A model generated the notes under the pieces. That model was not told the DNA's origin and did not search any database. It saw only the letters and a list, made by a program, of their open reading frames with translations. Made by a program: the position numbers and the translations under genes. A stretch of DNA of 39,800 nt from Phycisphaerales bacterium (GTDB lineage Bacteria; Planctomycetota; Phycisphaerae; SM23-33). Shown piece after piece: positions 21,828-38,760 of the stretch. How positions within the stretch are numbered: the stretch's first letter is position 1; every line of letters starts with the position of its first letter. The stretch spans positions 1-39,800 of the forward strand of contig JABGPZ010000070.1 in assembly GCA_018644725.1 (NCBI GenBank), in the 5' to 3' direction.

Positions 21828-21955
21828 TCCGCCGCCGCAAAAGAAAGGGTTTTCTTTTCGATGACAGGAGTGATAAAAAATGGTTCATGGCAGATTAGAG
21901 GGCAGGAGTACCTCATTCGACTCTATGATTCACTCGGCTGGACCGGGTCTGCCTT

Positions 21956-22143
21956 TGCCCTGAAAGGGCAACAGTGTTTAGCCGGGGGCGTGAGCCCCCG
22001 GTGGAGGGCCTCAAGGCAAAGCCCTGAAAGGGCGAAAGAGAAATGTAGGCTCGGTGTTTCTTTCGCCCCTTCGGGGCTCTTTTTATTATGCCTCATTCCG
22101 GGGGCTTACGCCCCCGGCTAAACACTTTCGCGCCTTCGGCGCT
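21956..22143. repeat. Long imperfect inverted-repeat element
   Basis: The 29-base arms at 21973-22001 and 22098-22126 are inverted copies with one mismatch, and each arm is itself a hairpin (CCGGGGGC/GCCCCCGG). Inside, 22021-22040 and 22061-22080 also pair (GCCCT..GGGCGAAAG with CTTTCGCCCC..GGGC). A further GCGCC-TTC-GGCGC hairpin lies at the right edge (22130-22142). There is no open reading frame of note. It resembles the GC-rich palindromic intergenic repeats of planctomycetes, and is probably a non-autonomous repeat family member. Confidence 0.7.
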
Positions 22144-22195
22144 TGAACCAATCCTGTCGCATAAGAATCAATCCCCTCTACTCTGCCATAAACCT

Positions 22196-22225
22196 AAAAA
22201 AAATGCCGCACCCGAAGGTGCGGCA
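22196..22225 (-). terminator. Intrinsic terminator for secDF
   Basis: Stem TGCCGCACC/GGTGCGGCA (22204-22212 with 22217-22225) closes on a four-base loop (CGAA as read on the plus strand). On the minus strand it is followed by eight T (A-run 22196-22203). It starts 22 bases past the secDF stop. Confidence 0.9.
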
Positions 22226-36149: not shown

Positions 36150-37286
36150 ATGGGAAAAGAATTTAGAATTGGCATCGTTGCTGGCCTGGTCATGTTGGTC
36201 GTCGGCATTGGCATTGTCCTGTTCCGCGGTGATAAACCGGAGCCCAAGACGAACGTCGGAGAAGCCGTGATCGCCAAAACCGAGAAAAAGGAAATCGGCA
36301 TCATCGACACCGACAATATCAACTCCCCCTCGACGCCTGATTATGGCCCGAATGGCTTTGATTCGCCCACGGACCTTCCGGTCGTTATCGGCGGCGGTGA
36401 CACATCCGAACAAGTCGTCATTGGCGGCGGTGACACGTCCGAGCAAATCGTCATTGGCGGCGGGGACGCGTCCGAGAAATCTGGCGCGGATCTGGTCGCA
36501 GACATCGCTGACTCCAGCTCGGAAGACAAACTTCCCGTCTCATCGGAGAAGAAGCCGGACATGGAATGGTTCGATGGAAACATCGACCCGAATAAAAAAG
36601 CCGTCGTTATCGGCGATGGTACCACCCCCGACAACGGTTCCCTTCCGGCCCCCGACAAAAAAACCGACGGCGGGATCACGGATGGCATTGATGGCGGCGG
36701 CGACAGTCGCGATTTTGTAATTCCGTTGCCCGACCAGATCGATATCCGTCCCATTCTGGACACGACCGGTGGCGCGGCGCCCAAGACGCACACGATCCAA
36801 CAGGGTGACAACTACTGGACCCTCGCGGAAAAATATCTCGGCCACGGAAAATACTACCTGCGCTTCAAAGATGCCAACCCCGGCATCAACCCCGACAACC
36901 TGCGCCTGGGTACGGTCGTGAAGATTCCGCCCAAGCCCGCAGCCAAAGCGACCACCGCGACTGGTGGCACCGCAGCAGCAACGAAGCGCGGGACCATCGT
37001 CACCTCGGCGGCAGGCACGAAGACCTATACCGTCGCCAAGAACGATACCATGAGCAGCATTGCCCGCAAAGCCTATGGCAACGCGAACCTCTACCACATC
37101 ATTCAAAAGGCCAATCCGTCCGTGGACCCCACGCGAATGATCCCGGGCAAAACTGTGTTGAAGATTCCGCCCAAGCCCGCGGCCAAACCGCGCACAACGA
37201 CCCCGAGCACCCCGCGTCGCAGCTCGGGTGGAACGGCTGGCCCTGCCCGCCGCGTCCCCGGCCAACCGTGGTTCGGCAGCAACTAA
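36150..37286 (+). CDS. Membrane-anchored protein with two LysM domains
   Basis: This 378-residue protein has one N-terminal membrane helix (about 7-25, MGKEFRIGIVAGLVM), so the rest faces the periplasm. A low-complexity acidic region (30-200) contains three repeats of V-I-x-GGGD-(T/A)-SE (78-110). Two LysM domains follow, 213-259 ('HTIQQGDNYWTLAEKYLG') and 291-339 ('YTVAKNDTMSSIARKAYG'), each ending in 'KIPPKPAAK'. LysM binds peptidoglycan glycans, so this is a likely wall-binding or tethering protein; no enzyme domain is visible. GAGGAG precedes the ATG. The tail is Pro/Arg-rich. Confidence 0.85.
   Translation: MGKEFRIGIVAGLVMLVVGIGIVLFRGDKPEPKTNVGEAVIAKTEKKEIGIIDTDNINSPSTPDYGPNGFDSPTDLPVVIGGGDTSEQVVIGGGDTSEQIVIGGGDASEKSGADLVADIADSSSEDKLPVSSEKKPDMEWFDGNIDPNKKAVVIGDGTTPDNGSLPAPDKKTDGGITDGIDGGGDSRDFVIPLPDQIDIRPILDTTGGAAPKTHTIQQGDNYWTLAEKYLGHGKYYLRFKDANPGINPDNLRLGTVVKIPPKPAAKATTATGGTAAATKRGTIVTSAAGTKTYTVAKNDTMSSIARKAYGNANLYHIIQKANPSVDPTRMIPGKTVLKIPPKPAAKPRTTTPSTPRRSSGGTAGPARRVPGQPWFGSN
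36381..36479 (+). repeat. Three 33-base in-frame repeats within the LysM gene
   Basis: Units at 36381-36413, 36414-36446 and 36447-36479 each encode the 11-residue motif (V/I)VIGGGD(T/A)SE(Q/K). They differ mainly at synonymous sites, suggesting selection for the peptide. Likely a linker of variable length. Confidence 0.8.
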
Positions 37287-37374
37287 CGGCCTCCGCGCAC
37301 GTTATGAAACATCTCGGAACAAAAACCGGCTTACTCCAATTTGACAAATAAACTAACAATTTATCCCAATTTGC

Positions 37375-37403
37375 TTGATTTTCGATTAGCGAAACGATAG
37401 GAT
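37375..37403 (+). promoter_or_regulatory. Candidate promoter of the small RNA
   Basis: TTGATT (37375-37380), a 17-base spacer and TAGGAT (37398-37403) would start transcription near 37410. The flanking DNA is AT-rich. The same TTGATT-17-TATAGT form is found for the minus-strand lipoprotein gene at 38820-38848. Confidence 0.45.
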
Positions 37404-37409
37404 GATATC

Positions 37410-37530
37410 TAGTAAACACAGCCACTCAGCAGGAGTGCCGTAACATACGCCCTGATGGGCACCGAAAGGCAGATGTGTAGGTTAGGCAAAAGGGTTTGCC
37501 TCCGTTCTCAGCGGAGGCATCTTTTTTTTT
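37410..37530 (+). ncRNA. Candidate structured small RNA with its own terminator
   Basis: The 387-base gap between the LysM gene and the tRNA-binding-domain gene (37287-37673) holds no gene but a structured segment. CACTC/GAGTG (37423-37427 with 37433-37437) is the first stem. TGCC/GGCA (37436-37439 with 37468-37471) encloses GCCC-TGAT-GGGC (37449-37460). GGCAAA/TTTGCC (37485-37490 with 37495-37500) competes with the terminator for GCC at 37498-37500. It ends in a strong terminator. I could not match it to 6S, SRP, tmRNA, RNase P or a riboswitch family I know. As the next gene has its own promoter, it is more likely a free sRNA than a leader, though an attenuator is possible. Confidence 0.55.
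37498..37530 (+). terminator. Intrinsic terminator of the small RNA
   Basis: GCCTCCG (37498-37504) pairs with CGGAGGC (37512-37518) around a seven-base loop. Nine T (37522-37530) follow. Confidence 0.88.
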
Positions 37531-37616
37531 GTTCAGTCGTCACGGCGGAACGGCCAATGCGATGCCGCCCATGGATTTCTCGGCCGACTTGAGTCGCTGG
37601 CACACCCCGATTCGCC

Positions 37617-37645
37617 TTGCCTTTCCAGCGCAATTCCGATAGGAT
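37617..37645 (+). promoter_or_regulatory. Promoter of the tRNA-binding-domain gene
   Basis: TTGCCT (37617-37622), a 17-base spacer and TAGGAT (37640-37645); start near 37652, leaving a 22-base leader that contains the AAGGA ribosome site. Confidence 0.6.
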
Positions 37646-37673
37646 ACCGCCTCCATCCACGAAAGGAATTTCC

Positions 37674-38132
37674 ATGACTGACGAACAAACCACCCCCGCG
37701 GCCGAGCAACCCGCTCCCGCTGACGAACCCAAACCCACCTGCTGCTGCGTGGGCGGAAGCTGTGGCGGCGACGAAGACACCGCGCCGGAACCCGATTTCA
37801 AACCGTTCATCGAATTTGACGACTTCCTCAAGGTCGACCTGCGCGTCGGCACGATTGTCGAAGCCGCCCTCCACCCCAACGCGGACAAGCTGCTGGTGCT
37901 GCAAGTCGACCTCGGCTGTGAAACCCGCCAGATCCTCGCGGGGATCAAGGCGTGGTACGCCCCGGAAGACCTCGTCGGCAAACAGGTCACCGTCTGCTGC
38001 AACCTCAAGCCCCGCAAGATGCGCGGCCTGGAGAGCGCGGGGATGATCGTCGCAGCCAGCGGCGACGACCGCGAAGACGTTGTGGTCCTCTGCCCCGACC
38101 GGCCTATGCCCGCCGGCGCAAGCTGCTCGTAA
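37674..38132 (+). CDS. Stand-alone tRNA-binding-domain protein (MetG C-terminal/CsaA-like)
   Basis: This 152-residue protein has an OB-fold tRNA-binding domain (about 47-152) of the type found at the C-terminus of methionyl-tRNA synthetase: 'FDDFLKVDLRVGTIVEA', 'HPNADKLLVLQVDLG', 'RQILAGIKAWY', 'VTVCCNLKPRKMRGLESAGMI' (seen as NLKPRKMRG, ESAGM). It may serve as a separate beta chain of MetG or as a CsaA-like chaperone. The first 45 residues are unusual: Pro/Ala/Glu-rich with Cys23-Cys24-Cys25 and Cys30 in CCCVGGSCGG, a possible metal site. AAGGA is 6 bases before the ATG; no in-frame ATG lies upstream. Confidence 0.88.
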   Translation: MTDEQTTPAAEQPAPADEPKPTCCCVGGSCGGDEDTAPEPDFKPFIEFDDFLKVDLRVGTIVEAALHPNADKLLVLQVDLGCETRQILAGIKAWYAPEDLVGKQVTVCCNLKPRKMRGLESAGMIVAASGDDREDVVVLCPDRPMPAGASCS

Positions 38133-38182
38133 CGACAGCTAGACAACAACGCAACCTCCGCCCTCAGAGACTATACACAATT

Positions 38183-38219
38183 AAAAAGCCGCATGGACAA
38201 TGTTCCACGCGGCTTTTTT
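38183..38219. terminator. Bidirectional terminator between convergent genes
   Basis: AAAAAGCCGC (38183-38192) pairs with GCGGCTTTTT (38209-38218), and TGGA with TCCA inside. T-runs lie on both strands, so it serves both the tRNA-binding-domain gene (stop 38132) and the minus-strand lipoprotein gene (stop 38239). Confidence 0.88.
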
Positions 38220-38238
38220 ATTGTGTATTTCGCAGTGA

Positions 38239-38760
38239 CTATTTGATTGAGAAGCTGCCGAGAATGGCTTTTTTCTTTGGCGCAAAACCGGCCTCACCAC
38301 CTTTGAACGTGCCACAGGTAATCGCGTAGACGAGGTCGTCATGAATGACAATGTACAGATCAGCCACCAAGGGAACTCCCTCGACGAAGATCTCATATTC
38401 CAGGCGATACCCAGAATAGGGTCCAACTTTGGCGGGGACAAATTTTCTATCCGGACTAACGGTAAACTCCTTTCGGAGTTCCTCCAGATTCAGTGCAAGA
38501 TATTTCTCCTCTGAGTACAGTACCGGAAAGTGTTCCACAACCACATTCACAGTTTGCAACACGATCGGCTCCACCTCTTCAACATAGGTAGCCATCATAT
38601 CCACGCCGTCGCCACCGTTCTTCTCCACTTCCCAGCCTTCCGGAATGGTCAAGAGATATCCGCCTCCCGCGTAAGTGGGTAGCGGTTTGGAGGGTTTCAT
38701 TCCGCAGCCGGGGAATACAACGAACGCGCAGAGCAGCATCAACATCAATTTCAATTTCAT
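38239..38760 (-). CDS. Small putative lipoprotein, PsbP-like fold possible
   Basis: This 173-residue protein has a hydrophobic signal (1-18) ending FPGC19, a lipobox with an unusual -3 residue. The rest starts with 'GGGYLLTIPEGWEVE', follows with 'VNVVVEHFP' and ends with 'DLVYAITCGT' and 'AILGSFSIK'. That order (a 'y.i..P.gW' strand, then 'v.i.v...', then 'y.i.......f..i..SF') is typical of PsbP/DUF1795-like proteins of unknown function. AAGG is 7 bases before the ATG. It is alone on its strand, convergent with the tRNA-binding-domain gene and divergent from the protease gene. Confidence 0.7.
   Translation of the reverse strand: MKLKLMLMLLCAFVVFPGCGMKPSKPLPTYAGGGYLLTIPEGWEVEKNGGDGVDMMATYVEEVEPIVLQTVNVVVEHFPVLYSEEKYLALNLEELRKEFTVSPDRKFVPAKVGPYSGYRLEYEIFVEGVPLVADLYIVIHDDLVYAITCGTFKGGEAGFAPKKKAILGSFSIK

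Follow-up and report, generated by a model that had tools for sequence, protein, structure and literature searches.

The window, i.e., the whole 39.8-kb stretch of DNA that was analysed, comes from a host assembly of 2.54 Mb. The region of interest is the gap between the stop of a LysM-domain gene (PF01476; 36150–37286) and the start of a tRNA-binding-domain gene (PF01588; 37674–38132), which are both encoded on the plus strand. In order, this gap holds an AT-rich stretch, a promoter-like pair, a mixed sequence of some 90 bases, and a strong terminator. The AT-rich stretch (37320–37400, no strand assigned) has a G+C content of 0.33, compared to 0.59 for the window, and contains the promoter-like pair.

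Both bordering genes have relatives in most of the 35 family genomes, in 30 for the LysM gene and in 29, host genome counted, for the tRNA-binding-domain gene. The named relatives of the latter suggest that the host is planctomycete-like and close to Phycisphaerae. Inspection by eye of the gaps 5' of the tRNA-binding-domain orthologues (among those listed of 30) and of the gaps 3' of the LysM relatives (30 listed, one empty) revealed no unit comparable to the one in the window. The motif AGGTCCGATAA, which we take to resemble a sigma-28 type -10, was seen ahead of the next gene, 3' of the LysM genes, in many relatives (loci L105, L107, L111, L113, L114, L118, L120, L122, L125, L129, and L132). 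On the other side of the tRNA-binding-domain gene, minus-strand terminator-like hairpins with a T run on the plus strand too (AAAAAGCCGCATGG...CGCGGCTTTTTT; 38152–38220) separate it from a convergent open reading frame (38239–38760) that has no Pfam match.

The intrinsic terminator was identified by a terminator scan and by folding (37497–37530, plus strand), and consists of a 10-pair stem (37497–37519), closed by a 3-base loop and followed by a T run. Folding of the segment 37495–37530 gave a z-score of -5.9, and none of 500 shuffles was as stable. The terminator is thus real and clearly beyond chance, the sole described part of the region for which this holds, and it provides the intrinsic terminator expected of an autonomous small RNA gene. 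A scan of 36800–38300 detected no other plus-strand terminator-like site from the LysM stop (37286) to 37497, so transcripts that run on from the LysM gene are most likely stopped here as well.

The promoter-like pair, TTGATT-17-TAGGAT, was read from the sequence at 37375–37403 on the plus strand (TTGATT at 37375–37380, TAGGAT at 37398–37403). It has 8 of the 12 consensus letters (the limit of the scan tool is 9), and when the gap was shuffled 5000 times, 3105 of the products scored as high; the stricter form TTG-N20-TANNNT was present in 195 of the 5000. Only two copies of TTG-N19..21-TAGGAT occur on either strand of the window, i.e., this pair and the one belonging to the tRNA-binding-domain gene (TTGCCT-17-TAGGAT; 37617–37645, plus strand, also read from the sequence), and their -10 elements and spacings are identical. 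We therefore regard TTGATT-17-TAGGAT as a plausible promoter. Sites of the form TTG-17-TA(G/C)ACT were picked 5' of many tRNA-binding-domain orthologues, and 22 of 30 scored at least 10, a count that overstates their conservation because the score favours TTG and TA...T. A possible leader peptide was also considered and rejected: an ATG at 37402 opens 13 codons, but it falls within the -10 and would therefore be absent from the RNA.

The putative transcript body spans 37408–37494 on the plus strand, given a start near 37410 as predicted from the -10. Three short hairpins were read from the sequence on the plus strand, with the stems CACTC/GAGTG (37423–37427/37433–37437), GCCC/GGGC (37449–37452/37457–37460), and GGCAAA/TTTGCC (37485–37490/37495–37500), the last of which lies in the body with its 5' part only, and a closing stem that encloses three hairpins can be drawn (37408–37420/37474–37486). 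The stretch with its terminator folded more stably than most shuffles (37405–37530, z = -2.36, 6 of 200 as stable; in a second test of 37407–37530, z = -2.5, 6 of 500 as stable), whereas the body without the terminator did not (37407–37494, z = -0.04, 214 of 500 as stable). The z-scores of three other sub-domains lay between -0.26 and -0.59, and that of the minus strand was -1.95. The fold signal of the whole stretch is due almost entirely to the terminator, and the other stems are at chance level. A strong terminator can thus make an entire region look structured, a lesson for similar analyses, and hairpins that overlap a terminator arm are likewise frequent by chance.

An earlier note on this DNA, made without database searches, had described a promoter-like pair, three stems and a strong terminator in the gap, and called the RNA structured. 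All of these parts are indeed present, with the terminator firm and the promoter plausible, but the stems do not rise above chance and the word structured is not borne out for the body. The same note had pointed out that the GGCAAA/TTTGCC stem shares three bases with the terminator stem, making the two mutually exclusive as in switching RNAs. The overlap exists, but it amounts to four bases (TGCC, 37497–37500) when the outer T-A pair is counted, and among 3000 shuffled versions of the body, 732 had a terminator-competing hairpin of at least six pairs. The mutual exclusion of the two hairpins thus does not exceed chance, as it should in a riboswitch or an attenuator, and the comparison with switching RNAs is not supported.

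To find relatives of the gap RNA we searched genomes of the host's family and class, where a small RNA whose role is broadly conserved might be expected to turn up. Among the 35 family genomes, which included no other genome of the host's genus, blastn at E ≤ 1 gave matches in 22 (host genome included), none of them a believable relative; by eye, and without gene calls, the other matches among those listed were mostly in coding-like DNA. The top match outside the host was 36 bases at 86% in genome G018. It was rejected as a relative, being part of G018's own repeat, which had 63 matches in G018 and none in the host genome. In G018 this is a high-copy palindromic repeat with GTTTGGGTGGCATGG (L003, L073, and other loci; the 63 matches are to one 231-base query). 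A gapped pattern, composed after the G018 match was known, was found in 2 of 397 class genomes, i.e., the host and the same place in G018. Blastn against the 397 class genomes returned matches in three (host, G018, and G296), and that in G296 (42 bases at 81%) was discarded since it falls within an open frame of 238 residues.

A covariance model built from the single sequence matched 1 of 298 class genomes, the host itself, and with laxer filters 4 of the 35 family genomes at E ≤ 5, i.e., the host and three at E 1.9–4.2; by eye, two of those three (L191 and L193) showed no likeness beyond the weak score. Blastn with a 101-base query in six family genomes matched the host genome alone, and plasmid and phage records yielded no match. 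An exact 15-base pattern was found in 26 stretches of viral contigs, but their flanks depart from the window sequence. For a single-sequence query at these distances, such missing matches are weak evidence of absence. The model from homologous gaps that the earlier note had proposed for detecting covariation thus had no believable relatives to build on in the family and class genomes.

The note had also called the RNA unassigned, and this stands, as no family in Rfam 15 reached its cut-off in the gap. At the gathering threshold the whole window contained only two matches to Acido-Lenti-1, near 22.0 kb. At E up to 10, the interval 37250–37690 gave one match (17.1 bits, with 56 required) and 37400–37535 gave four, all far under their cut-offs. 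A divergent 6S RNA was nonetheless considered, given that the RF00013 model detects 6S in 22 of the 35 family genomes, the host genome not among them, and that the GCCTC/GAGGC of the gap resembles the 6S closing stem and the size of the gap RNA is in the small RNA range. Six of the family 6S RNAs were therefore combined into a model, which matches 28 of the 35 genomes at E ≤ 0.1. It places the host's own 6S on another contig (G000:C95:745–903, E = 1.6e-6), and in the gap it matches the terminator/outer stem only (37496–37521, 12.8 bits). The 6S reading, to which we give next to no probability, is refuted for practical purposes. The host 6S RNA itself (locus L188) is blank for RF00013 at E ≤ 0.01 and scores 36.5 bits with the family-member model.

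The Acido-Lenti-1 matches (21956–22001, minus strand, 46.2 bits; 22098–22143, plus strand, 55.1 bits) lie in a palindrome-rich stretch. Stretches like GCCCTGAAAGGGC... and GCCGGGGGCGTAAGCCCCCGG... recur in sampled host contigs, and CCCTGAAAGGGC has four copies in 224,496 sampled host bases, which points to a dispersed repeat and away from single small RNA genes. Local alignment of the body to 21940–22200 gave a score of 38, equalled by 2 of 1000 shuffles, so the body might be a decayed copy of this repeat; however, the similarity had been chosen by eye. When 600 segment-strands of the window were compared, none scored above 38, a value given by two overlapping segments at the repeat, and the next, located elsewhere, was 37. 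The top segment in the 224,496 sampled genome bases likewise scored 37, and CCCTGATGGGC and GGCACCGAAAGG of the body occur there 0 times. With similar scores elsewhere in the window and the sampled genome, we rejected a decayed repeat as highly improbable.

Other readings of the gap itself were weighed against a short transcription unit. One is that no separate small RNA exists. The LysM mRNA would then carry a 3' untranslated stretch of about 240 nt up to the terminator that ends it, with a promoter-like pair that is there by chance. This is possible, if rather unlikely: it fits the lack of an alternative plus-strand terminator-like site from 37286 to 37497, the frequency of 8-of-12 promoter matches among shuffles of the gap, and a body that resembles unconstrained sequence, but against it are the AT-rich dip around the pair, a -10 and spacing that recur in the promoter of the next gene, and the small number of shuffles that hold the stricter TTG-N20-TANNNT form. 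Alternatively, the region could provide the tRNA-binding-domain gene with an attenuated leader and with a second promoter at a distance, with read-through past 37530 reaching 37674 as set by GGCAAA/TTTGCC versus the terminator. That gene is indeed next downstream on the same strand, the overlap of the hairpin with the terminator is real, and a closing stem around three hairpins can be drawn. Since the gene has its own promoter beyond the terminator, as the earlier note had also observed, control by read-through is less likely than a short transcript, and with a competing hairpin that is common by chance, folding of the body at chance, and no comparable gap seen 5' of the orthologues listed, we consider an attenuated leader improbable.

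Terminator-type riboswitches and attenuators share with the gap a drawable hairpin that overlaps the 5' arm of the terminator. They differ from it in that here the overlap is at chance frequency, and there is no conserved aptamer, no relative, and a downstream gene with its own promoter; a riboswitch reading has no positive support. A new class of small RNA or terminator riboswitch confined to the genus, built on the closing stem at 37408–37420/37474–37486 around the three hairpins, with its 3' strand overlapping the antiterminator-like GGCAAA/TTTGCC, is very doubtful.

We lean, with modest confidence, towards a lineage-specific short transcription unit of about 115–120 nt on the plus strand that shares its terminator with the LysM mRNA, which is the most parsimonious account. 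It draws on the strong terminator, the AT-rich dip, the separate promoter that the next gene has beyond the terminator, and a -10 and spacing shared with that promoter at just two such sites in 39.8 kb. Against it are a promoter score that is common in shuffles, a body not folded beyond chance, and the lack of a relative in the 35 family and the 298 or 397 class genomes. The free small RNA favoured in the earlier note is in keeping with a strong terminator behind a promoter-like pair and with a promoter of its own for the next gene, and it is plausible but unproven.

Transcription would start near 37410 from TTGATT-17-TAGGAT, within the LysM 3' region, and would end at the intrinsic terminator (37497–37530) common to LysM read-through, which may also serve as the 3' stabiliser of the short RNA. 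Small RNAs from intergenic regions and mRNA 3' ends, which start at an internal promoter and share an intrinsic terminator, generally work by base pairing, and the gap RNA, if active, would act in this way via its weakly folded body. It resembles that class in being short, on the mRNA strand and 3' of a gene, with a promoter-like pair ahead and an intrinsic terminator and T run behind; it differs in that no conserved seed or relative was found. Promoter use, accumulation of the RNA and any function are what we infer from these features. If the unit is transcribed, it would be one more unconserved small RNA in a poorly studied planctomycete-like lineage, and would otherwise be of little significance.
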